Source: a virus. From it: a stretch of 43,123 nucleotides of DNA. The stretch spans positions 1 to 43,123 of IMG/VR virus record IMGVR_UViG_3300032223_000621; one strand, written 5' to 3'. Shown piece by piece: positions 29,673 through 43,123 of this stretch; the stretch's first letter is position 1; each line of letters begins with the position of its first letter. The translations under genes were made by a program, and so were the position numbers. Below the pieces are notes generated by a model. It saw only the letters and a list, made by a program, of their open reading frames with translations, made no database searches and had not been told where the DNA came from.

Positions 29673-29680
29673 TATAAATA
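29673..29680 (+). promoter_or_regulatory. T4-type late promoter (TATAAATA), very close to a start codon
   Basis: This is a perfect TATAAATA only 5 bases before the ATG at 29686. In T4 the late start site lies a few bases downstream of this element, so initiation here would give a nearly leaderless mRNA lacking the upstream GGAG (29669-29672). It may be a genuine promoter, or an AT-rich spacer in which GGAG serves the read-through transcript. Confidence 0.4.
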
Positions 29681-29685
29681 ACATT

Positions 29686-30357
29686 ATGAAAAAAGCACTA
29701 GTATCATATCAAGGATATGTCGGAAGAATCGTAGATCCAGGTGAAGAAGGCCCGTTATACGAAGGTCCAGACGCTACGTTTACGTGGGTTGATGCTCCGG
29801 ATAACGTCCAATTAGACTGGACATTAGAATACAGTCCACAGCAAGGCATCTGCGTTTGGGTAGAGCGTGAAGGTCCATATACAGATAACTCCGTTGCTAG
29901 AAAAGTAGCCTACGGGGAACCAGGCGCACAGCTAGGAATGATCTTTGATGCTATCAAAGAAAATGGAGTGTTAGACACTAACAGCGACTGGTATCAACAT
30001 CAGTTGTTGGTTAAATCAATGATTCCTAAACCAGATCCACAACCAGCTCCTTCTAGTTTGGAAGAATATCTAGCAGAACAACAAAACAGAGAGCCACATC
30101 CAGATAAGCCTTGTATTTCACAGTCTATCGAAATGCAGGCCTGGAAACGCTATCCAGGGTGGAAGGGCTATGTTGCTGACAAACTACCAGTTCCAGGTAA
30201 CGCCTGTGTTGGTGAAGACGGCTTTGTCTACAACAAAGAAACTGGCGAGAAATTAGAGTTAGCCAGCGCATACGGCATTGTTTCTGAAACAGCGTTAGAC
30301 GGTACAATTACTTGGTATGGTCCAGACGAAATGCCTGTTCCAAAAAAATCAGCCTAA
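29686..30357 (+). CDS. Conserved phage protein of unknown function at the end of the tail-fibre operon
   Basis: This protein has 223 residues. The N-terminus MKKALVSYQGYVGRIVDPGE, with FTWVDAPDNVQLDWTLEYS near 31-50, has the 'alternate strand, VDPG, F.WVD.PD' layout of many short proteins next to phage fibre genes. It continues with GICVWVEREGPYTDNSVARK, VAYGEPGAQLGMIFDAIKEN, a Pro-rich linker (PKPDPQPAPSSLEEYLAEQQ), and a C-terminal part with WKRYPGWKGYVADKLPVPGN and DGFVYNKETGEKLELAS. It is the last gene before the intrinsic terminator at 30371. By position it could be a fibre-assembly or tip-associated protein, as gp38/Tfa proteins are in other phages, but no diagnostic motif was recognised. 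It could equally be a structural subunit. Confidence 0.55.
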   Translation: MKKALVSYQGYVGRIVDPGEEGPLYEGPDATFTWVDAPDNVQLDWTLEYSPQQGICVWVEREGPYTDNSVARKVAYGEPGAQLGMIFDAIKENGVLDTNSDWYQHQLLVKSMIPKPDPQPAPSSLEEYLAEQQNREPHPDKPCISQSIEMQAWKRYPGWKGYVADKLPVPGNACVGEDGFVYNKETGEKLELASAYGIVSETALDGTITWYGPDEMPVPKKSA

Positions 30358-30370
30358 TAGCTAACACATA

Positions 30371-30400
30371 GAAAAGGCGGTGCTTGCCGCCTTTTTTCTT
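30371..30400 (+). terminator. Intrinsic (Rho-independent) terminator
   Basis: GAAAAGGCGG-TGCTTG-CCGCCTTTTTTC forms a 9-10-bp stem with a short loop followed by a T-run. It is the only strong intrinsic terminator seen in the window. It lies 13 bases after the stop at 30357 and separates the structural operon from the enzyme operon. Confidence 0.88.
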
Positions 30401-30416
30401 GACCATTTTTTTCTGT

Positions 30417-30424
30417 TATAAATA
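30417..30424 (+). promoter_or_regulatory. T4-type late promoter (TATAAATA) of the halogenase/oxygenase operon
   Basis: A perfect TATAAATA follows the terminator directly and lies 27 bases upstream of the first halogenase ATG at 30452, which has its own ribosome-binding site (AAAGGA). This spacing is normal for a T4 late promoter. It implies that the enzyme operon is transcribed late, together with the virion genes, and not as an early metabolic takeover operon. Confidence 0.75.
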
Positions 30425-30451
30425 AACTGGCACTATAATCAAAGGATACCT

Positions 30452-32071
30452 ATGCAAGTCAAAACTGTTAAAATTATTGGTGGAGGATCTTCGGGCTGGA
30501 TGACCGCTGCCGCGCTTTCCAAACTATGCCCACATTTAGACATTACCTTAGTTGAATCACAGAAAATCGGAACCGTGGGTGTAGGAGAAAGTACACTAGG
30601 TCACATCAACAAATACCTAAATATGTTAGGACTTAAAGATGAAGACTGGATGCCAGCTTGTAATGCTACCTACAAGAACTCAATTCGTTTTACAAACTTC
30701 CGAGACAATGACGGAACCTTCTTTGAATATCCTTTCAGTGCAGGATTAGATTTCACAGATAAGCCTTCGGGTTCAAATGCCTGGGCAGAATTAGCAACAC
30801 TATATCCAGATGAATATGGTCCAAGTCAGTTCGCAGAAATGTATTGTGCGGCAAACACATTCCTGGCTTTGTACAATAGACAAACTAGAGATGAAAAGAA
30901 ACTCTTAAGAAACTATGACTTTAGATGGGACACTGCCTATCATATGGATGCAGGGTTATTTGGACAATATCTAAAAGAAAAAATCGCAATTCCAAACGGA
31001 GTCAAACACGTTATCGGTGAAGTACATTCATTCCTTAAAGATAAACTCGGTAATATTACAACCATCTTGATGGATGATCTTAAAACTCAAATCACAGCAG
31101 ACCTTTGGATTGACTGTACAGGTTTTAGATCAGTGCTGTTAGAAGGTTGGATGGGCGCACAGTTTATGCCTTTCGACAAATATCTTGCCAACGACCGTGC
31201 TTGGGCTTGTCGTATCCCCTACGAAGATCGTGAAAAAGAAATGCACAACGTCACTGACTGCCACGCATTAGGTAACGGTTGGTCTTGGAACATTCCACTA
31301 TGGAATCGTATCGGCACAGGCTATTGCTATTCATCTAGATTTACCACAGACGAAGAAGCCAAGCGTGAGTTTAGAAATCATCTAGCAACCACAGGCAGTA
31401 AAGAACGTGCAGAAAATGCAGAGATGTTTCAGATTCAAATCCGTCACGGTATTCGTAGACGTGCTTGGTTAGGTAACGTAGTTGGGGTTGGTTTAAGCTA
31501 CGGATTCGTAGAGCCATTGGAATCAACTGGCTTGCTAACCACACACGAGAATATTACAAAACTAGTTGAAGTTCTAAATCGCCGTGAAGGTTATATCACA
31601 CGTTCAGAGCGCGAAGGGTTTAATTTTGCTGTACAACACGATGTATTGAGATTCCGTGATTTTGTATCACAACACTATGCGTTATCACGCAGAACAGACA
31701 CTCCATATTGGAGATGGTGTACTCAGATCAACGAGTATCAACCAGAGCAAATGGGCGACTATATGTTGCTACAAGCACAGTATCCTAACCTAATGGGCAA
31801 TATCGCTTCAAACGCTACATATCCTGCAGAATATGTTGGTAATATGTTTATTGCTGCTGGTATGGGTGTTAAATCTATTTCAACTCCTGAGTTAATCTAC
31901 TTCAATGGTTCACGTCAAGAGATTGCTAGAAAGCAAGAAGAAATTGGCTACACTAAACGTAGATTCGAAGAGTACCGTGAGTTTGTAGTTGAACACGTAA
32001 AAACACTACCAACTCACTACGAATTCTTAAAGAATGAAATCTACGGCGGGAAAGACGACTACGCTCTATGA
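30452..32071 (+). CDS. Flavin-dependent tryptophan halogenase-like enzyme, copy 1
   Basis: This 539-residue protein fits the FADH2-dependent tryptophan halogenase family (PrnA/RebH type), which makes HOCl from FADH2, O2 and chloride (or bromide) and delivers it to an aromatic substrate through a lysine. Visible motifs: FAD-binding GGGSSGW at 10-16; GESTLGH at 45-51; NATYKNSIRF with the candidate catalytic Lys75 (equivalent of PrnA Lys79); WIDCTGFRS near 219-227; the family signature WSWNIP at 277-282; and GFVEPLESTG at 351-360, with Glu357 in the place of the catalytic glutamate. Length is close to that of bacterial enzymes. It is the first gene after the late promoter, and its stop overlaps the next start (ATGA). 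Substrate is unknown: free tryptophan, a peptide or another aromatic. A flavin reductase partner, needed by such enzymes, is not encoded in the window. Confidence 0.88.
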   Translation: MQVKTVKIIGGGSSGWMTAAALSKLCPHLDITLVESQKIGTVGVGESTLGHINKYLNMLGLKDEDWMPACNATYKNSIRFTNFRDNDGTFFEYPFSAGLDFTDKPSGSNAWAELATLYPDEYGPSQFAEMYCAANTFLALYNRQTRDEKKLLRNYDFRWDTAYHMDAGLFGQYLKEKIAIPNGVKHVIGEVHSFLKDKLGNITTILMDDLKTQITADLWIDCTGFRSVLLEGWMGAQFMPFDKYLANDRAWACRIPYEDREKEMHNVTDCHALGNGWSWNIPLWNRIGTGYCYSSRFTTDEEAKREFRNHLATTGSKERAENAEMFQIQIRHGIRRRAWLGNVVGVGLSYGFVEPLESTGLLTTHENITKLVEVLNRREGYITRSEREGFNFAVQHDVLRFRDFVSQHYALSRRTDTPYWRWCTQINEYQPEQMGDYMLLQAQYPNLMGNIASNATYPAEYVGNMFIAAGMGVKSISTPELIYFNGSRQEIARKQEEIGYTKRRFEEYREFVVEHVKTLPTHYEFLKNEIYGGKDDYAL

Positions 32072-33687
32072 AAGTTAAAACCGTTACCATAATAGGGGGC
32101 GGTAGTTCTGGTTGGATGGCAGCCGCAGCCTTGGCCAAGCTCTGCCCAAACATTGAGTTGACTGTGGTCGAATCGCCTGATATTAAAACTGTAGGTGTCG
32201 GCGAAAGCACTCTAGGACATATCACAAAGTTTTTAGATCTACTAGGGCTAGAAGACAAAGACTGGATGGCAGAGTGTAATGCTACCTATAAAAACTCTAT
32301 TCGCTTTACAAACTTTAGAGAAAACGATGGCAGTAGTTTTCAATATCCATTTAGTCTAGGCTTTGATTACACAGACAAACCCACAGGAATCAACACCTGG
32401 AGTGAACTTGCAGCAGTATATCCCGATGAATTTCCTCCTGAAACCTTCGCAGAATTCTATGCCACTGCTAATACATTCATAGCAAATAAAAATAAACAAA
32501 CGAAAAATACAAACAGACAATTACGTCATTTTAATTTTAAATGGGATACGGCTTACCACGTTGATGCTCAGTTGTTTGGCCAATATTTAAAAGATAAAAT
32601 CGCAATACCTCACGGTACTAAGCATATTTTCGGCGAAGTTGCTTCCTATTCTAAAACAGACAAAGGATATATTGATAAAATATTTCTTATGGATGGAACA
32701 GCATTGGAATCCGATCTGTGGATCGACTGCACTGGATTTAAGTCAATGATACTGGAAGGATGGATGGGGTCAAAATTTGTTAGTTTTGACACACATTTAT
32801 TCAACGATTCTGCCTGGGCTTGTAGAATTCCCTATGAAGATAGAGAAACAGAAATGCACAACTTTACCGATTGTCACGCACTAGGCAATGGCTGGGTCTG
32901 GCATATTCCTTTATGGAATCGTATTGGCACTGGGTATGTCTACAGTAGTAAATTTACATCTAAAGAAGCAGCAAAACAAGAATTTATCAATCATTTAGCC
33001 AGTACTGGCAGCAAAGAACGTGCAGAATCTGCAGAGATGTTTCACGTAGATATGCGACACGGCCACAGAGAAAATGCTTGGGTAAAGAATGTAGTTGGGG
33101 TTGGTCTGAGCTACGGCTTTGTCGAACCATTAGAGTCTACAGGTCTACTTACTACTCACGAAAACATCACAAAGCTAGTTGAAGTATTGAACAGACGTAA
33201 CGGTTTTGTGTCGAATACAGAAAGAGAAGGTTTTAATTTCGCAGTAGAAAATGAAGTTATTAAATTCAGAGATTTTGTATCACAACACTATGCTCTGTCA
33301 ATGCGTGACGATACTCCTTACTGGGAATACTGTACAGAATATCATAACTATTGTCCAGATCTTAGAAGTGAATATCGCTTGGCTAATGCCCAATATTACA
33401 CACTCATAGGAAACATAACTCTAAATAGAACATACGATCCTGGTTTTGTAGCAGGATTGTTTATCGCAGCAGGAATGGGAGTTAAACCAATTTCAACTAA
33501 AGAAATTGCGTTACACACAGGCGGCAGCGGCATAGGAATAATGACAAGGATTGAAGAATTAGACTATGCCAAACGTAGGTTTGAAGAGTATAGAGAGTAT
33601 GTTTCTGATGTTGTCGATAAGTTGCCTAGCCACTACGAATTCTTAAAAAATGAAATCTACGACGGTAAAGATGACTACGCTTTGTAA
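32068..33687 (+). CDS. Flavin-dependent tryptophan halogenase-like enzyme, copy 2
   Basis: This is a second 539-residue halogenase, paralogous to copy 1 along its whole length. Of the first 60 residues 44 are identical by direct count, and both end in KNEIY-x-GKDDYAL. The key residues are kept: GGGSSGW (10-16), GESTLGH (45-51), Lys75 in NATYKNSIRF, WVWHIP (277-282) and GFVEPLESTG. Differences cluster in surface segments and in the stretch after residue 480 (HTGGSGIGIMTRIEELDYAK versus FNGSRQEIARKQEEIGYTKR), which suggests a changed substrate and not decay. Translation is coupled to copy 1 by ATGA. A heterodimer or two sequential halogenations are both possible; sequence alone does not decide. 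Confidence 0.88.
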   Translation: MKVKTVTIIGGGSSGWMAAAALAKLCPNIELTVVESPDIKTVGVGESTLGHITKFLDLLGLEDKDWMAECNATYKNSIRFTNFRENDGSSFQYPFSLGFDYTDKPTGINTWSELAAVYPDEFPPETFAEFYATANTFIANKNKQTKNTNRQLRHFNFKWDTAYHVDAQLFGQYLKDKIAIPHGTKHIFGEVASYSKTDKGYIDKIFLMDGTALESDLWIDCTGFKSMILEGWMGSKFVSFDTHLFNDSAWACRIPYEDRETEMHNFTDCHALGNGWVWHIPLWNRIGTGYVYSSKFTSKEAAKQEFINHLASTGSKERAESAEMFHVDMRHGHRENAWVKNVVGVGLSYGFVEPLESTGLLTTHENITKLVEVLNRRNGFVSNTEREGFNFAVENEVIKFRDFVSQHYALSMRDDTPYWEYCTEYHNYCPDLRSEYRLANAQYYTLIGNITLNRTYDPGFVAGLFIAAGMGVKPISTKEIALHTGGSGIGIMTRIEELDYAKRRFEEYREYVSDVVDKLPSHYEFLKNEIYDGKDDYAL

Positions 33688-34453
33688 AAAACTTTTTGGA
33701 AAATGGTTTAAGAAAAAATCTTTTATAAGATTTTATTCTCTTGAGCCCGGCGTACTAGACCTATTCCCAATAACAAAATCATCAGCAATCAAACGCCCAT
33801 TTGTAGACTTACCAGAGTACTCAGACATTCCTTCAACTAAGAATTGTCCTGGTATTAGAAAAATTGTTTCTACAGGGTGGGTAGTACTTGCACCTGCAGA
33901 CTTTATAATAAAAACCACAGGTGACGGAACTACAATGGAATGGATGGAGCCTTGGAGATTTACCAAAGTCAGCGAAGGACGAGATTCTTATGTTAGTTCA
34001 CACGGTCCAGCGCAAACTGAATTGCTAGCAGATAATGAAACATTAAGGACTGTAGTAAAGATAGAAACTCCTTGGAGAGTTGAAACATCAGACGATGTTG
34101 TACTACTACAGATTCCTGTTACCTACAACAACGAACAGAGATTTTACGCTGCAACAGGGATTTTAGATGCAGGCTACGGTCACACTATTAATGTTCAATT
34201 GTTCTGGAAAAATCTCAACGGAGAAACGCTAGTAAGAGCTGGTACTCCGCTTTGCCAACTAATTCCGGTATCACGTCAATCTTTGAGCACATCAAATTAC
34301 GATGTAACTATTGACGAAGCTACCGAAATTGACAAGAAAAAAGAGCGAGAATTTAACTACGCATCAAATTGTGTAGTATTATCGCAGGATTCTCTAGCAT
34401 CAAGATTAACACGCACACTCACAATTCTAAATAAGTACAAACAACGAGGATAA
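33671..34453 (+). CDS. DUF6065-like protein of unknown function
   Basis: This protein has 260 residues from the ATG at 33671, which overlaps the halogenase end by 17 bases. An earlier ATG at 33650 lacks any ribosome-binding site, and its extra residues lie over the conserved halogenase C-terminus. A basic N-terminus (CKKLFGKWFKKKS) is followed by FYSLEPGVLDLFPI, CPGIRKIVSTGWVVLAPADF, EWMEPWRFTKVSEGRDS, IETPWRVETSDDVVLLQIPV, then YAATGILDAGYG, NVQLFWKN and GTPLCQLIPVSRQS. The order 'FY.L.PG', 'GW....P.DF', 'TPW/PG....P', 'GI.D', 'G.PLCQ.IP' resembles DUF6065 proteins. Recalled examples occur near halogenase or oxygenase genes. The function is unknown. It could be a scaffold or an enzyme acting on the same substrate. 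Confidence 0.6.
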   Translation: MTTLCKKLFGKWFKKKSFIRFYSLEPGVLDLFPITKSSAIKRPFVDLPEYSDIPSTKNCPGIRKIVSTGWVVLAPADFIIKTTGDGTTMEWMEPWRFTKVSEGRDSYVSSHGPAQTELLADNETLRTVVKIETPWRVETSDDVVLLQIPVTYNNEQRFYAATGILDAGYGHTINVQLFWKNLNGETLVRAGTPLCQLIPVSRQSLSTSNYDVTIDEATEIDKKKEREFNYASNCVVLSQDSLASRLTRTLTILNKYKQRG

Positions 34454-34457
34454 TCAA

Positions 34458-34712
34458 ATGGACTATATCACATCACTAAAAGCAACTCTTGCTAAAGTTA
34501 CAGAAGAAAAAGCAAAATTAGACGAAGAGTTGAAAAAGCTCGAAGAAGAATTTGCCAACGTTAAACTAAACCCATACGGAATTACTTCTATCGATTTTAG
34601 TAAACGTCAAGAAATTTCAACTGACTCTATTAAAATGGAAGGCACCATTATGGGAATACAGTTAGCTTTGGATACCTATGACGAGGCTAATGCGAGTGTT
34701 CCAACAGAGTAA
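34458..34712 (+). CDS. Small coiled-coil protein
   Basis: This 84-residue protein has a good ribosome-binding site (GAGGATAATCAA) before ATG. Residues about 7-37 (TLAKVTEEKAKLDEELKKLE and following EEFANV) form a highly charged heptad-like coiled coil. The rest (YGITSIDFSKRQ, MEGTIMGIQLALDTYDEA) looks like a short alpha/beta tail. The gene sits between the DUF6065-like gene and the first oxygenase, and the next gene starts inside it. Such a protein might tether or oligomerise the neighbouring enzymes, but this is speculation. No family was recognised. Confidence 0.6.
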   Translation: MDYITSLKATLAKVTEEKAKLDEELKKLEEEFANVKLNPYGITSIDFSKRQEISTDSIKMEGTIMGIQLALDTYDEANASVPTE

Positions 34713-35280
34713 TGGCGGAGTACATTTATTTCCACCGCTGATATGGAAATTCCAATACGAGTTTGATCTACAAACACTAACGCCTAAGCTAGATCATTTA
34801 TTTTCACTAGTTGAAAAAAATTCTGTATTAGAAGTAGGAGATGCAATTTCAACTGTGTCGGTTGATCAAAACCTTCAACCACACGGTTGGAATGAGCTTG
34901 AGCATTTTCAAATATGGCTAGGCGGTAAGATAGCCGAAATTCGCAGAGCCTATGATTTTGTCATCGGGCATTCAGAAGTCACCCAGTCTTGGTGCAACAG
35001 GCATCGCCGGGGCGGTCAAACCTCAGAGCATACACACAGTTTCGGTACTTTTGTTGCCAGCTGCTATATTAAAGCCCCTTCGATGTCAGGCAACATTGAA
35101 TTTAAAGATCCGCTTGAATATCATAAAAGTTCGTTTCCTATAATTCCAGAATTGTCTTTATACAGACAAGTTGAAGTTAGTACAAATGATGTGTTGATAT
35201 TTCCAGGATGGCTCAAACACAGAGTTCAACCAAGCCAAACAGATGAGGAACGCATAGTAATGACGTTCAATATAAAATGA
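34678..35280 (+). CDS. Fe(II)/2OG oxygenase-like (TIGR02466/2OG-FeII_Oxy_5 type), no. 1
   Basis: This 200-residue protein shows the layout of the putative 2OG-Fe(II) oxygenases of TIGR02466/PF13759 type. It has an N-terminal LFPPLIW, a core EHTHSFGTFVASCYIKAPSM with candidate iron ligands His118/His120, and then VLIFPGWLKHRVQPSQTDEE followed by RIVMTFNIK, with distal His181 and the 2OG-binding Arg192. These enzymes hydroxylate C-H bonds using O2 and 2-oxoglutarate. Recalled members are frequent in cyanophages but their substrates are unknown. Start ATG 34678 has GGA at a 5-base spacing; ATG 34690 is possible. It overlaps the coiled-coil gene by 35 bases and the next gene by ATGA. It is closely related in layout to nos. 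3 and 8. Confidence 0.72.
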   Translation: MTRLMRVFQQSNGGVHLFPPLIWKFQYEFDLQTLTPKLDHLFSLVEKNSVLEVGDAISTVSVDQNLQPHGWNELEHFQIWLGGKIAEIRRAYDFVIGHSEVTQSWCNRHRRGGQTSEHTHSFGTFVASCYIKAPSMSGNIEFKDPLEYHKSSFPIIPELSLYRQVEVSTNDVLIFPGWLKHRVQPSQTDEERIVMTFNIK

Positions 35281-36080
35281 TGGATTTTAAATATTGTAAT
35301 CCAGACGCTAACAGATTTAGAGATGTTATCAAGATTAAAAAACTTGACAATTGGTCTGTTGAATATTTCAAACTCACTGAAGATATTGGCTACTGGATTG
35401 CTGAGCATCCGTTTGAAACAGATGAACAGTTTGAACTTTTTAAAAATGTTATAGCAAGTTTTCCTGTACAGAAAGACAACAGTCATCCTGATAACTTTGA
35501 TCCAAATCCTTTTGATACCATACATTTACCGGACTGGGTATATCAAGATATTTGTTTTTTAATACGTGATTTTTATTTCAAACACGTAACAGATAAAGTA
35601 CAGGAGCCACAAATACACGAGTGGGGTAATCTATATTTTAAAAATAGAACACGACCCATTAGCTGCTGGCGCTATCCACATATCGATTATGTCTACGGTA
35701 TGGTTGCAAATATGTGGTTCACTGATCACGATATAAAAGATAGCTGTACTAAACTATACAAATACCACGGCAAGATGCATAACGATGTCTATGATTTCCA
35801 ACTTGATCTAAACCATCCTATGCGCAAAGAATGGGAAGCAATATCTGTTAAGCCTTTTAGGATGGATAGCTGGATTAATATTCCAGACGACGAGCTAGCA
35901 CGTTGGGGATTTGAACTAGTTGGTTCAGTCCCGACAAAAGAAAAAACTTTGTCTATGTATAAAGCCAATGTCTGCCACACAGCAGTTGTCGGTGATGCCG
36001 TAGATTTTAGATGGAGCCACGCATTTGCTTACAGCCACGAGCAGCCAGTAGATACTTTTTTTAGGGACATATTCAAGTAA
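35277..36080 (+). CDS. Fe(II)/2OG oxygenase-like (DUF6445-like), no. 2
   Basis: This protein has 267 residues. The core WRYPHIDYVYGMVANMWFTD places a classical H-x-D (His135, Asp137) before a strand. KLYKYHGKMHNDVYD follows, and a later His234 (ANVCHTAVVGDAVDFRWSHA) could be the distal ligand, with Arg245 nearby as a 2OG-binding candidate. The order 'PHID..., .NMWF/LYLN, ...Y.YHG..., CH' resembles DUF6445-type proteins, for which a 2OG-Fe(II) oxygenase fold is expected. It is longer than its neighbours because of a helical N-terminal 100 residues. The start overlaps the previous stop and the next gene starts immediately after its TAA. Assignment rests on the H-x-D...H arrangement and context. 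Confidence 0.55.
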   Translation: MMDFKYCNPDANRFRDVIKIKKLDNWSVEYFKLTEDIGYWIAEHPFETDEQFELFKNVIASFPVQKDNSHPDNFDPNPFDTIHLPDWVYQDICFLIRDFYFKHVTDKVQEPQIHEWGNLYFKNRTRPISCWRYPHIDYVYGMVANMWFTDHDIKDSCTKLYKYHGKMHNDVYDFQLDLNHPMRKEWEAISVKPFRMDSWINIPDDELARWGFELVGSVPTKEKTLSMYKANVCHTAVVGDAVDFRWSHAFAYSHEQPVDTFFRDIFK

Positions 36081-36704
36081 ATGAATTTTGAACTTTATTT
36101 TCCAACTCCTATATGGTGGGAAGACACTAACATTGATACCAAAGAAATGTTAGATTTATGTTATTCTATCAGAGAACAAGATCCAGTCGGACGTAAGCTC
36201 AGTAACGACGGCGGCTGGCAAAGCAAGGATTTTAGACCGGGCATCTATTCAGAACTAAAGCCGATTGAAGATAAAATAATGGCGCAGGCACAGCAATGTA
36301 TACGTGACTTTGGCTTCGATGAACAGTGGTGTTTTCCTGTGTTAGAAAATTTATGGTTTAATGTTAACTATAAGTACAGTTCAAATATGGTTCATATGCA
36401 CGATGCATCTTTTGTCTCTGGTGCGTTTTATATAAAAGCTCGCCCAGGACAAGGTAAGATCACAATGTATAAAAATATGATGCAAGACTTTGCTACTATT
36501 TCATTTGCAAACTTAGAAAAGTTTACACCTATTAGTGCATCAGCGATCAGTTATGATCCATACACTGGTAGGTTGATTATGTTTCCGGGGTGGTTACCAC
36601 ACGGAGTATCAGGAAACGAGTTAGATGAAGATAGAATCTCACTTTCGTTTAATATAAAATTAATTAGGACAGACGATGAACGGTATCGGCCAGCGATTAG
36701 TTAA
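36081..36704 (+). CDS. Fe(II)/2OG oxygenase-like (TIGR02466/2OG-FeII_Oxy_5 type), no. 3
   Basis: This 207-residue protein fits the family well: YFPTPIWW at the N-terminus, ENLWFNVNYKYSSNMVHMHD then ASFVSGAFYIKA (ligand candidates His105, His107, Asp108), and GRLIMFPGWLPHGVSGNELD followed by EDRISLSFNIK (distal His174, 2OG Arg185). The SGAFYIK and FPGWLPH strings are typical of this group. No stretch of disruption or missing key residue is seen. It begins immediately after the preceding TAA with no spacer. The next gene starts 29 bases inside its 3' end. Confidence 0.78.
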   Translation: MNFELYFPTPIWWEDTNIDTKEMLDLCYSIREQDPVGRKLSNDGGWQSKDFRPGIYSELKPIEDKIMAQAQQCIRDFGFDEQWCFPVLENLWFNVNYKYSSNMVHMHDASFVSGAFYIKARPGQGKITMYKNMMQDFATISFANLEKFTPISASAISYDPYTGRLIMFPGWLPHGVSGNELDEDRISLSFNIKLIRTDDERYRPAIS

Positions 36705-37401
36705 CGAAACAAACTTATTGTTCGAAGACAAGCCACACTACTTCAAGCAGTTATTGCCAGAAGCCAGTGAAATGGTGACTTGGGCAGATGTTGAATCTTG
36801 TATAAACAAGCCCGAGCTTTATACATTTGAAATGATTGGAAAGGACAATTTAAAAATTGAAATCCCTACAAATAAAAAATCTTGGGTATTTGGAAAACAA
36901 GTGCAAGATAAAGCATTTATGTTTGATCGCATAAATCAAGGTTTTGGTTTTGTTATTATGGACTATGCTTTTCACAGCCCTAAGACAATGAAACTTTTAG
37001 AGATATTAGAAAAAATCTATATGGTGAATTCAGCCATACACGTTTATGGCGGCTTAGAAGATTCTAAATCGTTCTGGATACACGAAGATTATCCATCTAA
37101 TTTTATTTTTCAAGCAGAAGGCAAAACACGCTGGAAAGTTTTTAATAACAGAATATCTTCAATGTATAGAACAGGAACAATGAATCATCAGTTAAAAGAA
37201 GAAGAACTTGATTTAGCATTTGATGTTGTGTTAGAGCCTGGAGATGCCATTTATATTCCCTCAAGGGCCTATCACATTGCAGAGCCAATGGGCCGTAGAT
37301 TAAGTATGAGTGTGCCTTGTTGGACTAAGTTACCAACAGACGACCCTAACGAATCGAGCGATAGAAATTGGTATAGGATAAATTATGACAGAAATATTTA
37401 A
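36676..37401 (+). CDS. JmjC/cupin-type oxygenase-like protein, no. 4
   Basis: This protein has 241 residues. The C-terminal half looks like a cupin_4/JmjC-type double-stranded beta-helix: SFWIHEDYPSNFIFQAEGKT followed by RWKVF, with His136-x-Asp138, and DVVLEPGDAIYIPSRAYHIA with distal His200, then RRLSMSVPC. The strings 'H.D....F..Q.EGK..W.V' and 'L.PGD..Y.P....H' are hallmarks of JmjC ribosomal-oxygenase-like (ROX/cupin_4) proteins, which hydroxylate protein side chains such as arginine or histidine in ribosomal proteins. Here a protein-hydroxylase role is inferred only. The N-terminal 100 residues form a helical region with no match recognised. It has its own ribosome-binding site (AGGA, about 9 bases before ATG). 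Confidence 0.75.
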   Translation: MNGIGQRLVNETNLLFEDKPHYFKQLLPEASEMVTWADVESCINKPELYTFEMIGKDNLKIEIPTNKKSWVFGKQVQDKAFMFDRINQGFGFVIMDYAFHSPKTMKLLEILEKIYMVNSAIHVYGGLEDSKSFWIHEDYPSNFIFQAEGKTRWKVFNNRISSMYRTGTMNHQLKEEELDLAFDVVLEPGDAIYIPSRAYHIAEPMGRRLSMSVPCWTKLPTDDPNESSDRNWYRINYDRNI

Positions 37402-37987
37402 ACCCGTAGAATTTAAAAACATAATTGACAAAGATTATCAAGATCAAATATATTCATATCTTACAGATGTGGAATTTGATTGGCATTTTATGCAAGACAC
37501 AACATCAGAAAACGGTGTTGATAACAACAGTGCGGTAGACGGAACCAATACTCCGGGCTTTGGAAATTTGATTTATTATCACAAACACGAAGAAAATCCT
37601 CACTTAGAATTTTTCAAACCGTTAATCGATGCTGTTGAAAAGGCAACAAACTTTAAAATAGATAGATTGCTAAGAGTACGTGCAGGGTTTTTATTAAACA
37701 CCAAATACATAATGCATCATCAGCCATACAAGCATAATACTCCCCATAGAGATTATGAGCAAGAACACTTCACGGTTGTTTATTATGCCAACGAAGCCGA
37801 CGGCGAAACTGTGATTTTCCGAGAAGTAGAAAAAGCTGAGAAGTATTATCCATTGCACAAATCGTTGCCAGAGAAAGGTAAGATAGTGTTGTTTAACGGT
37901 CTGCACTATCACGCCAGCACCTGCCCTAAGATTTTTACAAAGCGTATCGCTATTACTATTAATTTTATTGGAACGCCTAATGCTTAA
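37385..37987 (+). CDS. 2OG-Fe(II) oxygenase, prolyl-4-hydroxylase-like, no. 5
   Basis: This 200-residue protein has the core RVRAGFLLNTKYIMHHQPYK, then TPHRDYEQEHFTVVYYANEA followed by DGETVIFRE: iron ligands His121-x-Asp123. The distal segment is GKIVLFNGLHYHASTCPKIF, with candidate His176 and Arg187 in TKRIAITINFI. The pattern 'PH.D......VVYYN..DGET.....P..G....F....YH' is that of the P4H-like 2OG oxygenases. It is a paralogue in layout of no. 9 (39912), sharing the DGET/DGDT and FNG..YH-x-AS strings. It overlaps the JmjC-like gene by 17 bases, with AGGATAAATT before its ATG. The substrate is unknown. No N-glycosylation or secretion signals are seen, so it acts in the host cytoplasm or on virion parts. 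Confidence 0.8.
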   Translation: MTEIFKPVEFKNIIDKDYQDQIYSYLTDVEFDWHFMQDTTSENGVDNNSAVDGTNTPGFGNLIYYHKHEENPHLEFFKPLIDAVEKATNFKIDRLLRVRAGFLLNTKYIMHHQPYKHNTPHRDYEQEHFTVVYYANEADGETVIFREVEKAEKYYPLHKSLPEKGKIVLFNGLHYHASTCPKIFTKRIAITINFIGTPNA

Positions 37988-38687
37988 TGATTTTGCTGAA
38001 AAGATGATACGAATGAATCAAGGCAGTGCTGCTGCAATACAAGCAGGCGACCTTAAGAATCGATTCCTTCATCCGTTCTTTCCAACAATAATTGTAGATG
38101 ATTTCTATGAAGATCCAGACCTTTGGAGAGAATATGCACTCGAGCAGGAGTTCTTCAAAGGTGATCGTGGTACGTGGCCTGGTCTTAGATCAAAGTTACT
38201 GCACGAGTTAAACACAGATATGTTTGACATCGTTGCTAAAAAGATAATGTTTGTTTTAAAGATGTACGGCTTTACAGAATTTGCAGAACTACAAACAGGA
38301 TTTCAACTAGTAGATGATACCTATGGTCGCGGTTGGGTACACGACGATGATCCTAAACTTCACGTTGCTGGTGTTGTATATCTAAACAAAGATGCCGAGG
38401 AAGGCTGCGGAACTACCATATACAAAGATGCTCCTGATTTCAACGGTGAAGAATACACCAAGATGTTTATGAAAGATGTTCTAGATTCAACACCAGAGGA
38501 GAGAGCACAGATTGCAAAATACAGAGAAGATCAACTGGCACATTTTACTCCTACTATCAAAGTAGAAAGTGTTTATAATCGATTTGTGTTGTTTGATTCA
38601 CGTTGTTGGCACAGTGCTGATAAGTTCTTTGGAACTACAAAACAAGATTCAAGATTAAATCAAGTATTTTTTGTGAGATTTAAATGA
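37980..38687 (+). CDS. 2OG-Fe(II) oxygenase-like (DUF6445-like), no. 6
   Basis: This protein has 235 residues. The ATG at 37980 is preferred because GGA (37970-37972) is spaced 7 bases before it; a TTG at 37968 would extend it by four residues. Motifs: PTIIVDDFYEDPDLWREYAL near 35-54; YGRGWVHDDDPKLHVAGVVY with His121-x-Asp123; GCGTTIYKDAP; and FVLFDSRCWHSADKFFG with distal His211 and Arg225. These match the H-x-D...H...R set of 2OG-Fe(II) enzymes. It is a clear tandem paralogue of the following gene (no. 7), sharing PTIIVDDF, VWREYAL-type and NWHS/CWHS strings. It overlaps the preceding gene by 8 bases. The N-terminal extra 30 residues are absent from its sister. Confidence 0.75.
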   Translation: MLNDFAEKMIRMNQGSAAAIQAGDLKNRFLHPFFPTIIVDDFYEDPDLWREYALEQEFFKGDRGTWPGLRSKLLHELNTDMFDIVAKKIMFVLKMYGFTEFAELQTGFQLVDDTYGRGWVHDDDPKLHVAGVVYLNKDAEEGCGTTIYKDAPDFNGEEYTKMFMKDVLDSTPEERAQIAKYREDQLAHFTPTIKVESVYNRFVLFDSRCWHSADKFFGTTKQDSRLNQVFFVRFK

Positions 38688-39307
38688 AGCATAGAATTTT
38701 AAGTCAGCCAACTATAATCGTAGATGATTTTTTTGAATCTCCCACAGTGTGGAGAGAGTATGCTCTCAAACAAAAATTTAATTTTGATTCAGAAATAGAT
38801 ACCTATGCGGGCGAACGTACAGCTACATTGGATGTATTAAATATCGATTTATTTCACAAGGTTGCTGGCAAGTTAATTAAACACATTCCGCATAAGCATT
38901 CGTTTTCTAAATTGCAAATGAGTTTTACATTAACAGACAAAACCTACGGAACTGGCTGGATACACGATGATGAAGACTTTTATAATGTAGCCGGAATCAT
39001 TTATCTAACTCCTAATCCTCCTCCTAATACCGGAACTGTATTTTATCATAAAACTGCACACGAGCCGTTGCCGCATTTCAACGATCAGTTTTTCAACGAG
39101 CTCAAAGCAGCACCAGAAGATCGTCACATCTACGAAAAATACAAAGCAGAACAGCGTAATGTTTTTAAAAGAACACTGACTGTTGAAAATATCTATAACA
39201 GATGTGTACTGTTTAATCCTACAAACTGGCACAGCGTTGAAAGATATTTTGGCGACACCAAAGAAGATTCAAGACTTGTATTAACTATTTTCGGACACGC
39301 AGTATGA
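38684..39307 (+). CDS. 2OG-Fe(II) oxygenase-like (DUF6445-like), no. 7
   Basis: This 207-residue protein is coupled to no. 6 by an ATGA overlap. It shares with no. 6 the PTIIVDDFFESPTVWREYAL start, TYGTGWIHDDEDFYNVAGII with His94-x-Asp96, a TGTVFYH strand, and CVLFNPTNWHSVERYFGDTK followed by EDSRLVLTIFG, with His183 and Arg197. The pair is therefore a recent or well-kept tandem duplication with both active sites intact. Two enzymes of the same subtype usually mean two related substrates or positions, but this is inference. No signal peptide is visible. Confidence 0.75.
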   Translation: MKHRILSQPTIIVDDFFESPTVWREYALKQKFNFDSEIDTYAGERTATLDVLNIDLFHKVAGKLIKHIPHKHSFSKLQMSFTLTDKTYGTGWIHDDEDFYNVAGIIYLTPNPPPNTGTVFYHKTAHEPLPHFNDQFFNELKAAPEDRHIYEKYKAEQRNVFKRTLTVENIYNRCVLFNPTNWHSVERYFGDTKEDSRLVLTIFGHAV

Positions 39308-39924
39308 TGTACGGATCATTTCCTAATTTTGGGTTCCTTAGAGATGAAATTCCCAAGGATCTTCTGGAGGATTTGACCAAAGAAATAGAGGACTTAGATA
39401 CTTCTAGAAACAAATACAATATGCGCCTTGCTGGTAATATTGAATCAGAATACCAGTTAAATCGTTGTGCTGCGAAATTAGAAAAATATCTATTAACACT
39501 ATGCGAGCAGTACGAAACTGGACACTCGCTCAATAGAACATCTAAAGATCTCAGAGCAGACAATCTAGAACTACAAAGTTACTGGGTCAATATTCAAAAG
39601 AAAAATGAATTTAACCCGATGCATACACACGATGGAACCTATAGTTTTGTTATATGGATTAAGGTTCCTTATCGTATACAGGATGAACTGGAACATCCCA
39701 GCGTAAAGTTGTCCAACTTGCCTCGTGCTGGGATGTTCTCTTTCATATATACTAATGCGTTCGGTGAAGTTAGAGAATCAGAATTTCCAGTGGATCAAAC
39801 TTTTGAAGGAAATATATTTTTATTTCCTAGTTGTTTACCACATATGGTCTACCCATTTAATACTTCAGACGAAACAAGGATATCAATATCAGGCAATCTG
39901 CATAGGAAACAATGGAAGACATAA
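39304..39924 (+). CDS. Fe(II)/2OG oxygenase-like (TIGR02466/2OG-FeII_Oxy_5 type), no. 8
   Basis: This 206-residue protein has the core SYWVNIQKKNEFNPMHTHDG followed by TYSFVIWIKVPYRIQDE, with ligand candidates His107, His109 and Asp110. The distal part is GNIFLFPSCLPHMVYPFNTS followed by DETRISISGN, with His180 and Arg192. The strings 'YWVN.....N..H.HDG..SFV.W.K.PY' and 'FPS.L.H.V.P.....RIS.SGN' are familiar from oxygenase-like proteins of T4-like cyanophages, more than from bacterial members. The N-terminal half is helical and charged. It overlaps the preceding gene by 4 bases (an alternative ATG at 39307 follows). It belongs to the same broad subtype as nos. 1, 3 and perhaps 10. Confidence 0.78.
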   Translation: MMYGSFPNFGFLRDEIPKDLLEDLTKEIEDLDTSRNKYNMRLAGNIESEYQLNRCAAKLEKYLLTLCEQYETGHSLNRTSKDLRADNLELQSYWVNIQKKNEFNPMHTHDGTYSFVIWIKVPYRIQDELEHPSVKLSNLPRAGMFSFIYTNAFGEVRESEFPVDQTFEGNIFLFPSCLPHMVYPFNTSDETRISISGNLHRKQWKT

Positions 39925-40511
39925 TCGAAATCGATAACTTTATACCAGTAGATTATCAGAATCATCTACTTGAAACTTTCACGGGTTGGGAGTTTCCTTG
40001 GGTGCTGAATAAAAATATGGTATCAGGCGATAAACCTTTTGTTGGCTCGGCAAAGAATCCTCCAGGATTCAATCATTTCTTTTATGAAAAAAATGCTCCT
40101 GTAAGTAACTTTTTTCAATTAGTATATCCTTTAGTACTGAGCATTACAAGTCAGGCAGATGTGCCTTTTAACAGACTATATAGAATGCGAGCAAATATGA
40201 CATTGGCCAACGGCGAAGGTGCATTGTTGCCGCATATTGATAGCTTTCATCCGCACTGGAATGCAATATATTATGTCAATGACAGCGATGGAGATACTAT
40301 TATCTACAACGAAACCAATGATGAATTTGATCCAGGTCCTGCTGATATTGAAAAAATCAAGAGCGGAAAGTTTACTGAAAAGCTGAGAGTAACTCCTAAG
40401 AAAGGAAAACTGTTAGCATTCAACGGAAAGTATTATCACACAGCATCGTTTTGTAAGGAGTCACCTTACCGCTGCTTAATTAATATTAATTTAGGGAATA
40501 TGTTTTTATGA
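39912..40511 (+). CDS. 2OG-Fe(II) oxygenase, prolyl-4-hydroxylase-like, no. 9
   Basis: This 199-residue protein starts MEDIIEIDNFIPVDYQNHLL, the usual opening strand and helix of P4H-like enzymes. The core is YRMRANMTLANGEGALLPHI followed by DSFHPHWNAIYYVNDSDGDT, with His108-x-Asp110, then KKGKLLAFNGKYYHTASFCK with His176 and RCLININLG with Arg187. It is a paralogue of no. 5 in layout and in its distal strings. It overlaps no. 8 by 13 bases and has AGGAAACA before the ATG. The catalytic set is complete. The substrate is unknown; neither peptide nor small-molecule use can be excluded. Confidence 0.8.
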   Translation: MEDIIEIDNFIPVDYQNHLLETFTGWEFPWVLNKNMVSGDKPFVGSAKNPPGFNHFFYEKNAPVSNFFQLVYPLVLSITSQADVPFNRLYRMRANMTLANGEGALLPHIDSFHPHWNAIYYVNDSDGDTIIYNETNDEFDPGPADIEKIKSGKFTEKLRVTPKKGKLLAFNGKYYHTASFCKESPYRCLININLGNMFL

Positions 40512-41077
40512 TTACACATAGAGGAAACGGATTTTTATTATACCAGTCAGAATATATTGCTGGTCATATGCACGATCTAAAAGACGATTTAGAACACGCA
40601 CATCGACTATTCAAAGTAATGTTTCCTGAACACGATTCAACTTGGGGTTATGATAGATACAATATTTTTACTCTAACAGCACCGAGCTCAACATTCTACA
40701 ATGTCTATAAAGAATTAAGAAATCTTATTAGAAGCGAAATGGGAGATGATCGACAACTGTGGATTCAGAGTTGGGTCAATTATCATCGTGACGATCAGCT
40801 GATTCATAGACACCATCACGATTTTGAATATCACGGGTATATCGCGATTGATCCTAAACAGACCAAAACTGTATTTGACGACTACGAAGTGATTAATAAG
40901 CCAGGTCAGATCTATTTCGGTGAAGGTCATAGATACCATCACGTCGAGGCCATCGAGCCATTTGAAGGAATTAGAACCACATTGGGGTTTGATATTCACA
41001 CTACTCCGGTACAGAAGTATGTCACAGACTGGGTTGAAAAACCTTATACCAACAACGGATTTATTCCTTTGATATGA
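40508..41077 (+). CDS. Fe(II)/2OG oxygenase-like protein with HHHD motif, no. 10
   Basis: This 189-residue protein has LWIQSWVNYHRDDQLIHRHH followed by HDFEYHGYIAID, giving a run of His102-104 and Asp105 in the place of the iron-binding H-x-H/D. The distal part is KPGQIYFGEGHRYHHVEAIE followed by PFEGIRTTLGFDI, with His144/His145 and Arg156. The 'QSWVN.......H.H.H....GY..' and 'G.I.FG.....H.V......G.R.....DI' layout is related to the TIGR02466-type group (nos. 1, 3, 8), although the FPS/FPG.L.H string is replaced by YFGEGHRYHH. The unusually dense histidines could bind iron or another metal. Both ends overlap neighbours as ATGA. Confidence 0.68.
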   Translation: MITHRGNGFLLYQSEYIAGHMHDLKDDLEHAHRLFKVMFPEHDSTWGYDRYNIFTLTAPSSTFYNVYKELRNLIRSEMGDDRQLWIQSWVNYHRDDQLIHRHHHDFEYHGYIAIDPKQTKTVFDDYEVINKPGQIYFGEGHRYHHVEAIEPFEGIRTTLGFDIHTTPVQKYVTDWVEKPYTNNGFIPLI

Positions 41078-41718
41078 AACAAGATTACATCATCCTTAGA
41101 AAAGCAGTCAGCGAAGAACTATGTAAGTTTCTAGCACTTGAATTTTCTATGATGGAGACAACTTGTCGTCATTTGTATCCAAACGCAAATCTAGCAGATC
41201 TATGCGAAAACACTTTTGCTAGATACAGTCCGTTGATGATGGAAGCATTGAGCGTACACATACAGCCACTGGTTGAAGAAACTGTCGGTATGAAATTATA
41301 TCCAGTGTATTCTTATGCTAGAATCTACTACGAAGGTTCGGAACTAAAGAAGCACTTTGACAGAGAAAGCTCAGAAATTACTCTTTCTATTTGTTTAGAA
41401 AAGGGCGAAGACTGGCCTTTGTATGTTAAAAATTCTGACGGAGAAACACACGCTCTTAATTTAGAAGTAGGTGATGTTGGAATTTACTGCGGCCGCAAGC
41501 ACGAGCATTGGAGAGAACCTCTCAAGGGAAAACGCCATATACAGGCGTTTTTACAATATGTCGATGCTGAAGGTGAAAGTGCCTGGCTAAAATACGATAC
41601 TCGAGCTTGTTTAGGATTGCCCTTTGAGTATACTAGCCAGGCTATTAAAAACGAACTAACACAAGTTAAAGATTATTATAAATCTTTAAATCCTGATAAT
41701 ATTCTTAGACAAAAATAG
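41074..41718 (+). CDS. 2OG-Fe(II) oxygenase-like, no. 11, last gene of the enzyme operon
   Basis: This 214-residue protein has the core LYPVYSYARIYYEGSELKKH followed by FDRESSEITLSICLEK, with His94-x-Asp96, then WPLYVKNSDGE and VGDVGIYCGRKHEHWREPLK with distal His145, and RHIQAFLQYVD with Arg154. The 'Y..YAR.Y..GS.L..H.DR...E.......' and 'GD...Y.G....HWRE...G...Q.FLHY' pattern is widespread among bacterial and phage 2OG-Fe(II) proteins. It is distinct from the other subtypes in the operon. Its 3' end overlaps by 14 bases the 3' end of the convergent gene at 41705, and no terminator is seen between them, so the two transcripts probably run into each other. Confidence 0.78.
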   Translation: MKQDYIILRKAVSEELCKFLALEFSMMETTCRHLYPNANLADLCENTFARYSPLMMEALSVHIQPLVEETVGMKLYPVYSYARIYYEGSELKKHFDRESSEITLSICLEKGEDWPLYVKNSDGETHALNLEVGDVGIYCGRKHEHWREPLKGKRHIQAFLQYVDAEGESAWLKYDTRACLGLPFEYTSQAIKNELTQVKDYYKSLNPDNILRQK

Positions 41719-41923
41719 CGTCTTTAGCGATCTGGCTATCTTCTAACGGTCCGATCGGGCCAGCAACTACGTGGTGTGGACCTGCATAGCTCTTATCACT
41801 AGTTTCAAACAATTCTCTTGCTTGATTTCTAGATTCTGCTCTAACGTATCTTTCTACGACGTGTAAAGCGTGAGTATCTGGGTTTTCCTCATCGCGATAA
41901 ATCATCTTGTAAACTTTTGACAT
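41705..41923 (-). CDS. Small conserved phage protein of unknown function
   Basis: This 72-residue protein reads MSKVYKMIYRDEENPDTHAL, then VERYVRAESRNQARELFETS and GPHHVVAGPIGPLED. The start at 41923 is chosen because AAGGAGATACAA precedes it; a longer frame to 41965 would only translate the promoter/leader. The 'Y.VRAES...AR.LFE' segment resembles short alpha/beta proteins in T4-like phages, but no family was recognised. It is on the opposite strand to the enzyme operon, directly behind the third halogenase, with a late promoter of its own overlapping that gene's stop. Confidence 0.65.
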   Translation of the reverse strand: MSKVYKMIYRDEENPDTHALHVVERYVRAESRNQARELFETSDKSYAGPHHVVAGPIGPLEDSQIAKDAIFV

Positions 41924-41940
41924 TTGTATCTCCTTAACAG

Positions 41941-41948
41941 TATTTATG
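41941..41948 (-). promoter_or_regulatory. T4-type late promoter (CATAAATA, minus strand)
   Basis: On the minus strand CATAAATACTGTTAAGGAG reads into the ATG at 41923. The TAA inside it is the stop codon of the third halogenase (41944-41946), so the promoter overlaps the upstream gene's end. It matches the NATAAATA consensus and its spacing to the start (17 bases) is plausible. Confidence 0.6.
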
Positions 41949-43123
41949 CTGTCCTTTGGATCCATTCTTCAACGGTCCAAAAAGGATCAACAAGGGCTTT
42001 ATACTTTTGTGCATTCGTATTTAGCACATCGAGCCCTATAGGAAGCAAATTCCTATGGCTCGACGCTATAGGATCAGGGTCAAATAGCTTGATACCCTGC
42101 ATAACCATAATCCAAGCGGTAGCAGAATAGGCTTTAGGCCAGGGTTCTGGAGTGCGCAGATTATAGAAATCTCTCCATTCGTCTAGTTTTTCTTGTAAAC
42201 TCGCCGGAATCCTAAACTTATCATTGCCGTGGCTCTGCCAAAATTCTGTGTCTCTGCGTGGCCCACGATAATGCAATGCTAGGAAATCTTTGATATCGTC
42301 AGCTATAAAGAATGCACGATCATTGGCTCGTTGACGAGTAAATGCTTCGTATTCTTTGATATTAGGATTCCAGTAATCCTGAATAGCATATAGTGTTTCT
42401 ATAATAATTGCTAGTCCGTTGGCTTCTAAGGGTTCGATAAATCCGCTGCTTAGTCCAATAGCAAATACATTTTTCTTCCAGAAATTTTTCATCATACCTG
42501 GAACAAATTGAAAGTTAGCGATAGGATCGATTTTTTTATTGAATCGTTTTTCAGCTTCGCCAATAGCTTGGTCTAGGGTAATATGGTCTGGATCATAGAT
42601 ATACCCGTTACCAGAACGGTGTCGCAGATTGATGTTCCACGACCAACCGTATTTCATTGCAGTGGCATTGGTTGTAGTACAATAACAAGTATCGTCCCAC
42701 CAAGCAACTACAGCTCTTGCTGGAAAATAATCTGTGTAGTCAACTATCGGCTCTTTCATTACTTTTTCTAGCAGCAGTCTAGCGAAACCAGAACAGTCAA
42801 AGAACCAATCGGCAGATAGAACACGCTCTCCGTCAAGTGTAATTGAAGAAATATTGCCAGCGGCATCTTGTGCTGCTTCTTGATATTCACCTTCAACTAA
42901 CTCAATACCTCGAGATATTCCAATTTCTTTAAAGTAGGCTGCGGTAGCACGACTTTCGAAATGCCACATACAGGTAATCGGCAGCTCGGTCTTATCCCCA
43001 GGGCCATAGGGAACTTTGTTTGCTTCTACAAAATAATTTGCATAGAATGCCTTAGCCAACGGAATGTCATTTCCTATGATAGTTTTAAGATAAACATCCT
43101 TGGCACGTTCTTGTCGCATTATA
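41944..43123 (-). CDS. Flavin-dependent tryptophan halogenase-like enzyme, copy 3 (N-terminus outside window)
   Basis: Only the C-terminal 393 residues are present, and the frame remains open at the right edge. An ATG at 43119 is probably internal: about 110 residues including the FAD-binding GGG..GW and the catalytic lysine should lie upstream, judging from the other two copies. Visible motifs: WFFDCSGFARLLLEKVM, the signature WSWNINLRHRSGNGYIYDPD, and FAIGLSSGFIEPLEANGLAI, in which FIEPLE matches the family's catalytic-glutamate region. It also shows FVPGMMKNFWKKNVFAIGLS before it. Sequence similarity to copies 1 and 2 is limited to motifs, so it is a different subgroup, probably acquired separately. 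Opposite strand and late-promoter overlap suggest its own expression unit. Confidence 0.85.
   Translation of the reverse strand, partial: IMRQERAKDVYLKTIIGNDIPLAKAFYANYFVEANKVPYGPGDKTELPITCMWHFESRATAAYFKEIGISRGIELVEGEYQEAAQDAAGNISSITLDGERVLSADWFFDCSGFARLLLEKVMKEPIVDYTDYFPARAVVAWWDDTCYCTTTNATAMKYGWSWNINLRHRSGNGYIYDPDHITLDQAIGEAEKRFNKKIDPIANFQFVPGMMKNFWKKNVFAIGLSSGFIEPLEANGLAIIIETLYAIQDYWNPNIKEYEAFTRQRANDRAFFIADDIKDFLALHYRGPRRDTEFWQSHGNDKFRIPASLQEKLDEWRDFYNLRTPEPWPKAYSATAWIMVMQGIKLFDPDPIASSHRNLLPIGLDVLNTNAQKYKALVDPFWTVEEWIQRTA

Follow-up and report, generated by a model that had tools for sequence, protein, structure and literature searches.

To our knowledge, no natural substrate has been described for VirX1, a characterised viral halogenase that depends on flavin adenine dinucleotide (FAD). 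The enzyme originates from cyanophage Syn10, and its open active site accepts bulky substrates (PMC8407142). In syn9 and Syn10 (Kyanoviridae), gp38-gp54 encode fibre tips, a protein P, two halogenases, a protein D, a small gene and about ten oxygenases, and ORF64-80 of S-CREM1 encode a collagen-like fibre tip (F), P, one halogenase, D, a small protein s and nine oxygenases. The subject of this study is the corresponding gene row of the virus record IMGVR_UViG_3300032223_000621, analysed over positions 1 to 43,123 (the window, 43,123 bases). There, two VirX1-type FAD halogenases, D, s and eleven open reading frames (ORFs) with oxygenase signatures occupy positions 30452-41718, all on the plus strand. 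We consider it somewhat probable that this row is a late pathway for oxidising and halogenating side chains in the receptor-binding fibre of the same phage.

The gene order of syn9 and Syn10 is near-identical to that of the window, and their halogenase is 56-57% identical to the window's. The two phages differ from the window in that one of their two halogenases belongs to another subfamily, DUF6445 and Oxy_5 members are fewer, the site lies on the helicase side and the remaining genome is a cyanophage core. S-CREM1 differs in having a single halogenase. A cluster in S-SSM6a and S-SSM7 likewise joins a phage halogenase to 2-oxoglutarate (2OG) oxygenase and cupin-like genes, but its halogenase is only about 30% identical and carbamoyltransferases and a methylase are present (PMC7824862). 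The row is not unprecedented: most of its genes are found, similarly ordered, in syn9, Syn10 and S-CREM1. Since the genes and the cluster already stand in public genomes, the novelty lies in the module, its fibre partner and the function proposed for it.

Earlier interpretations diverge and treat the genes one at a time. The S-SSM6a cluster was interpreted as a secondary metabolite or capsule pathway (Iyer et al. 2021, PMC7824862), cyanophage 2OG genes were linked to 2OG/NtcA metabolism (PMC3037559), AlkB-like repair and antibiotic protection were proposed for such genes (PMC2984593; PMC9964418), and the 24 oxygenases of S-SCSM1 were read as host reprogramming (PMC9602691). The S-CREM1 report describes ten 2OG genes and PrnA, which its authors connect with DNA repair, protein modification, lipid metabolism and antibiotic protection (PMC9964418). 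For more than 10 years, cyanophage 2OG oxygenases have thus had conflicting explanations (nitrogen sensing, DNA repair, antibiotics). No paper tying the block to fibre modification was found in the literature searched, where most subscription titles were not covered. The features of the row and of its flanks are as follows.

27067 to 27918, plus strand: glycine-rich fibre tip F1 (phrog_863, E-value 4e-39; family alignment)
27932 to 28789, plus strand: glycine-rich fibre tip F2 (phrog_863, E-value 3e-39)
28805 to 29665, plus strand: glycine-rich fibre tip F3 (phrog_863, E-value 4e-45; AlphaFold predicted local distance difference test, pLDDT, 81)
29686 to 30357, plus strand: protein P (phrog_1787), by position a candidate fibre chaperone; relatives also have it between the tips and the halogenase
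30452 to 32071, plus strand: VirX1-type FAD halogenase 1 (Trp_halogenase Pfam, E-value 6e-102; motifs)
32068 to 33687, plus strand: VirX1-type FAD halogenase 2 (full-length Trp_halogenase Pfam, E-value 3e-104; motifs)
33650 to 34453, plus strand: protein D (phrog_7084), dUTPase-like fold (AlphaFold pLDDT 92)
34458 to 34712, plus strand: small coiled-coil protein s, in most but not all relatives
34678 to 35280, plus strand: O1, oxygenase (2OG-FeII_Oxy_5, HxH...H...R; Pfam, family alignment)
35277 to 36080, plus strand: O2, oxygenase-like (phrog_3234/1644-like, HxD...H...R; PHROG, family alignment)
36081 to 36704, plus strand: O3, oxygenase (2OG-FeII_Oxy_5, HxH; Pfam, family alignment)
36676 to 37401, plus strand: O4, oxygenase (JmjC_2; Pfam E-value 5e-15; H136/D138/H200)
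37385 to 37987, plus strand: O5, oxygenase (2OG-FeII_Oxy_3, HxD; Pfam, PHROG, family alignment)
37968 to 38687, plus strand: O6, oxygenase-like (DUF6445/phrog_1644, HxD; Pfam, PHROG, family alignment)
38684 to 39307, plus strand: O7, oxygenase-like (DUF6445/phrog_1644; HDD...WHS...R seen in the window protein)
39304 to 39924, plus strand: O8, oxygenase (2OG-FeII_Oxy_5, HxH; Pfam, family alignment)
39912 to 40511, plus strand: O9, oxygenase (phrog_274, HxD; PHROG, with 2OG-FeII_Oxy_3 slightly under the cut-off)
40508 to 41077, plus strand: O10, oxygenase-like (phrog_2696, HxH; profile related to 2OG-FeII_Oxy_5, hhalign probability 97% to O3)
41074 to 41718, plus strand: O11, oxygenase-like (phrog_2954, labelled ferrochelatase; HFD...H...R), the weakest assignment of the eleven
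41705 to 41965, minus strand: small protein m at the convergent end of the row, kept in relatives
41944 to 43122, minus strand: third, more distant FAD halogenase, truncated at the window edge (Pfam E-value 3.5e-65), the first of three in relatives

The sequence-only reading had described thirteen consecutive oxidative genes with overlaps of 4-35 bases. Two halogenases and eleven oxygenase-like genes do stand in one row, and the eleven follow each other from 34678 to 41718, but the thirteen are not strictly consecutive, as D and s intervene. Measured overlaps span 4-38 bases; in addition, two genes abut without overlap (36080/36081) and two others are separated by 4 bases (34453/34458). The block was also drawn too small, given that the third halogenase crosses the right edge and that related contigs hold three halogenases there, together with more oxygenases.

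Both halogenases of the row meet the sequence criteria of VirX1-type flavin-dependent halogenases. They are 67% identical to one another and share the flavin motif GGGSSG (GxGxxG), GWSWNIP or GWVWHIP (WxWxIP) and an invariant lysine, K75, that corresponds to the catalytic one. The best match of halogenase 1 in the PDB is VirX1 itself (6QGM, E-value 5e-201, full length).

The oxygenase-like proteins carry a candidate facial iron triad and a putative 2OG-binding arginine. They comprise three 2OG-FeII_Oxy_5, two 2OG-FeII_Oxy_3/phrog_274 and two DUF6445/phrog_1644 members, plus one each of phrog_3234/1644-like, JmjC_2, phrog_2696 and phrog_2954. Seven of the eleven passed the Pfam cut-off, DUF6445 itself being a family of unknown function; O2, O10 and O11 were assigned by PHROG matches, profile comparison or motif only. 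In ten of the eleven families, 96-100% of members retain the putative triad (HxD or HxH plus a distal histidine) together with the 2OG-type arginine; PF13759-like members have the HxH version and others HxD. For O7 (38684-39307) the alignment pool was mixed, and the triad was taken from the window protein alone. O4 has the JmjC_2 domain and the HxD...H triad of NO66/YcfD-type JmjC protein hydroxylases. NO66 hydroxylates histidine in a protein and is the nearest PDB sequence to O4 (E-value 1e-6, about 100 residues aligned), which is the shorter of the two.

As a side observation, PHROG families 274, 1644, 2954 and 3531 include oxygenase-like proteins, and the labels 'DNA endonuclease V', 'minor coat protein' and 'ferrochelatase' have spread from them into phage annotations. 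Judged by their motifs, the proteins of the row do not fit these labels.

To assess conservation, homologues of the halogenase and of D were gathered from viral contigs, ORFs were called and families were assigned by profiles built up from the window genes. Each scan retained no more than its 80 best matches, which skews the counts to relatives of the query genes. The gene order is similar in 54 non-redundant viral contigs carrying D and runs from fibre tips through P, halogenase(s), D, s and O1 to O11 to, variably, m and further halogenases on the other strand. It is nearly unchanged in the clade of the window and more altered elsewhere. In this set, loci with complete downstream sequence hold 4 to 11 oxygenases (9-11 in 27 loci), and 468 of 521 junctions overlap or touch. 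The genes of the row are under purifying selection: the pairwise ratio of non-synonymous to synonymous substitution (dN/dS) lies at 0.02-0.19 for all genes with estimable dS. Together, conserved order, low dN/dS and kept ligands argue against both a chimeric assembly and decay. The order recurs in the 54 contigs and in syn9, S-CREM1 and other phages, and the candidate metal ligands are retained at the frequencies given above. The earlier proposal of a dedicated, conserved and probably late-expressed block is hence supported, its lateness on the strength of the promoter-like element described below.

The constant partner of the row is the fibre tip. An F family lies upstream in 51 of the 52 D loci with enough upstream sequence, and each of 19 phage records with an F-type tip holds a full-length VirX1-type halogenase within about 5 kb. 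Among 24 isolate genomes searched with profiles, F occurred in 10 of 11 with a full-length VirX1-type halogenase versus 0 of 13 without (Fisher p 5.6e-6, a test that ignores kinship, on genomes partly picked for having a halogenase). A JmjC gene is present in 8 of 9 genomes with the F cassette. A scan queried with the fibre tip returned mostly the same contigs and is not an independent test. Fibre or other virion proteins had headed the list of targets in the sequence-only reading and are now the best supported of them.

The monomer model of F3 matched the Pam3 fibre best (PDB 7ypx, E-value 2.9e-8, template modelling (TM) score 0.46-0.52), the glycine-rich domain included. The Bxb1 tail tip ranked next, ahead of weaker matches to LTK and ALK glycine-rich domains. 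In Pam3 the glycine-rich domain is the receptor-binding end of the fibre and is folded by a chaperone (PMC9608196). The fibre gp24 and chaperone gp25 of Pam3 thus resemble the window in combining a glycine-rich receptor-binding tip with a dedicated chaperone, a match at the fold level only, whereas no enzyme cassette is described there. By its position, P is a candidate counterpart of the Pam3 chaperone. Histidine makes up about 8% of the C-terminal part of the tips versus less than 1% in the other fibre proteins of the window, and such histidine-rich tips would suit a histidyl hydroxylase.

Tips and enzymes also appear to share their history. Shorter or similar cassettes were found in syn9/Syn10, S-CREM1, S-RIM44, Sf-FP1, Sf-FR1, P-TIM40, P-RSM6, S-WAM1 and S-SZBM1. 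They occupy one site behind the fibres and beside the helicase (syn9, S-WAM1, S-SZBM1, P-TIM40) and another between fibres and neck genes (S-RIM44, Sf-FP1, Sf-FR1); S-SSM4 has the fibre/helicase site without a cassette. Terminases of the window clade and of cyanophages are 32-34% identical. By contrast, a comparison of the window with S-CREM1 gives 52-63% identity for F, P, halogenase, D and JmjC. The same five genes are 38-51% identical between S-CREM1 and S-RIM44, though the terminases of these two phages are 70% identical. In a concatenated cassette tree, one branch joins the window clade, syn9 and S-CREM1 with support of 100/99; the tree is unrooted, and the groups posed in approximately unbiased (AU) tests were already present in it. 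As cassette identity exceeds what the terminases would lead one to expect and gene histories differ, it appears that phage lineages have exchanged the enzymes along with the tips.

The start of the operon carries two further elements.

30376 to 30395, plus strand: terminator-like stem-loop with T run, similar stem-loops being found in relatives
30417 to 30424, plus strand: late-promoter-like TATAAATA, its position conserved in relatives

Here a terminator plus a perfect late-promoter-like sequence had been noted. In the window alone, TATAAATA is at chance level (2 found versus 3.4 expected), but its position is conserved. The relatives whose intergenic gap reaches at least 60 bases yield 47 distinct sequences; in 35 of these, TAAATA occurs 20-48 bases ahead of the halogenase gene, whereas single-base shuffles predict 2.5, and the conserved TAAATA is mostly preceded by a terminator-like stem-loop with T run. 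A pure-chance origin was rejected because of this conserved position. By sequence, a conserved T4-type late promoter-like element is present at the operon start, and the cassette is probably expressed late. In syn9-like phages, the gap between fibre and halogenase genes is 17-40 bases, so that the enzymes are probably on the fibre transcript there. A second TATAAATA at 29673-29680, a few bases 5' of the annotated P start, reflects either chance or a misplaced start codon.

According to the reading favoured here, the three glycine-rich tip proteins would be made along with the probable chaperone P, and the enzymes next. Before assembly or in its course, side chains in the tip or in adjacent fibre proteins would be hydroxylated by the 2OG/JmjC oxygenases, and the VirX1-type halogenases would halogenate exposed aromatic or heteroaromatic side chains, with one or a few sites per enzyme family. 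Modification would give the tip greater stability or a changed binding to host surface receptors. A protein substrate fits both a JmjC protein whose nearest relative is the protein hydroxylase NO66 and a halogenase of an open-site type. We propose more tentatively, at slightly below even chances, that phages of several lineages share a mobile cassette in which fibre tips travel with a dedicated set of as many as five halogenases and at least twelve oxygenases, diversifying virion adhesins post-translationally beyond the twenty amino acids. It would be the virion counterpart of the tailoring of ribosomally synthesised and post-translationally modified peptides (RiPPs).

The linkage points to one concrete candidate substrate, the fibre tip of the phage itself, and cultured phages with this arrangement exist; for one of them virion mass spectrometry has been published. 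If fibre modification proves true, phages edit the chemistry of the protein that determines host range, invisibly to sequence-based host prediction, and the cassette is a source of enzymes that hydroxylate and halogenate intact proteins.

Several observations weigh against modification of the fibre tip. In S-H35 (L320), a VirX1-type halogenase is set among replication genes, between gp46 and a peptidase, and the single F, a diverged one, lies about 85 kb from it; Sf-CH11 has a halogenase without F. PF13759 oxygenases occur in 24 of 24 cyanophage and pelagiphage genomes with 2-14 matches each, also at a distance from fibre genes, and the linkage to fibre tips could stem from a shared insertion hot spot. 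The number of oxygenases correlated with tip histidine and proline in the raw data (rho 0.57 and 0.74), but not in independent contrasts (p 0.14 and 0.15); as the correlations vanish there, residue-level support for histidine or proline hydroxylation was dropped. After kinship correction, tip tryptophan is lower with more oxygenases (r -0.53, p 4e-4, 20 residues tested, 40 loci). The S-CREM1 virion study reports 14 proteins, with no mention of modification in the text consulted (PMC9964418).

Among the alternatives, a small molecule (a halogenated amino acid, a sugar-derived metabolite or an antibiotic) made or decorated in the infected cell is unlikely but keeps some plausibility. Iyer et al. 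predict such a product for the halogenase/2OG/carbamoyltransferase cluster of S-SSM6a (PMC7824862), and a pyrrolnitrin-like antibiotic role was suggested for phage PrnA (PMC2984593; PMC9964418). However, neither the window nor the scanned adjoining genes of related contigs showed a recognisable transporter, aminotransferase, carrier protein or scaffold-forming enzyme, and the constant partner of the enzymes is a fibre tip, not a metabolic gene. In addition, oxygenase families are lost in other phages while the rest are retained, unlike the steps of a linear pathway.

A role late in infection on the host surface, where the enzymes would modify a glycan, lipopolysaccharide or outer-membrane protein and so prevent superinfection, say, or help progeny escape from receptor debris, is quite unlikely. 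On this view, selection would hold fibres and enzymes together because both bear on the receptor, and fibre linkage suits anything of that kind. Bacterial relatives of the halogenase, at most 40% identical to the window's, adjoin TonB-dependent receptor genes in 5 of 5 loci tested (L181, L190, L198, L227, L236), and an ORF of more than 700 amino acids lies within two genes of the bacterial halogenase in 47 of 71 loci; the wider family may therefore act on surface proteins. The halogenases at these loci are homologous and neighbour surface-protein genes, but the loci do not have an oxygenase row of the window type. Furthermore, a soluble late cytoplasmic enzyme would have much easier access to new fibres than to outer-membrane proteins that are already inserted, and the cassette is common to phages with apparently different hosts.

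For a RiPP-like peptide, with s or m as the precursor, we see a very low probability. A small conserved ORF heads the oxygenase row (34458-34712), another stands at its end, and FAD halogenases known in RiPP pathways provide a precedent. Yet no ORF was assigned to s in S-RIM44, Sf-FP1 and several contigs that retain the enzymes, s is a plain coiled coil under purifying selection along its length, and neither a leader peptidase nor an exporter was recognised. Equally improbable is that several of the proteins have turned into non-enzymatic assembly or structural factors of the fibre: the row is placed among structural genes and one family bears the PHROG label 'minor coat protein', but a structural role would give no reason for ten of eleven families to retain the candidate iron ligands and 2OG-type arginine in 96-100% of members. 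That the oxygenases serve general metabolism or repair (2OG drain, nitrogen signalling, AlkB-like DNA repair) and cluster as by-products of a gene-capture hot spot, as proposed for cyanophage 2OG genes (PMC3037559; PMC2984593) and in keeping with how widespread PF13759 genes are in these phages, is about as improbable, since eleven families in near-fixed order across viral contigs, each with its own ligands, go far beyond the need for 2OG consumption and the model has no place for halogenases.

No close DNA match of the window to sequenced phages was found. The cassette had been viewed in connection with cyanophages, but it is not specific to them. psbA is absent from eight related contigs (G001-G008, 114-278 kb), and one related terminase (L338, contig G003) is nearest to that of the Pseudomonas jumbo phage PA5oct (53% identical); a typical cyanophage was accordingly rejected as the identity of the window. 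Beyond the row, the opposite strand of related contigs encodes three halogenases, along with further oxygenases and a second homologue of D. The second halogenase set, convergent and more distant, lies at L346:11435-15973, L348:14894-19420 and L349:2401-6984, giving a total of four or five halogenases in most of these contigs. Genes for a T4-like sheath stabiliser, neck, sheath and tube follow the extended module.

The model of D resembles dUTPases in Foldseek (E-value 1.5e-4, TM 0.35/0.66). A distant homologue of D (26% identical, H152) was found in the haloarchaeal Halorubrum virus HRTV-2 (L344), close to a thymidylate synthase gene. Bacterial halogenase loci were considered as carriers of the same row and discarded, since only two were found, both phage-like contigs in metagenome-assembled genomes (MAGs). 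These two, L179:5167-12094 (Maricaulis MAG) and L170:5133-9029 (Dehalococcoidia MAG), hold halogenase-oxygenase rows beside virion-protein genes, L179 also beside a fibre gene, and their halogenases are 39% (L179) and 32% (L170) identical to the window's. A 2OG gene of S-TIM4 that mutated in host adaptation (PMC6224464) was rejected as a lead to the cassette, because it sits among baseplate genes.

A search by tblastn with the neighbouring gene at 4518-5570 gave no matches. Between this gene and the fibre tips, the window encodes three further large or fibre-like proteins.

6287 to 14971, plus strand: giant fibre/structural protein of 2894 amino acids, with pieces 31-39% identical to tail-fibre proteins (S-CAM1, P-SSM2 and others)
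15019 to 25947, plus strand: giant structural protein of 3642 amino acids, kept upstream of the cassette in the window clade
26305 to 27054, plus strand: small tail-fibre-like protein, f (phrog_31104, E-value 4e-22; weaker tail and fibre families)

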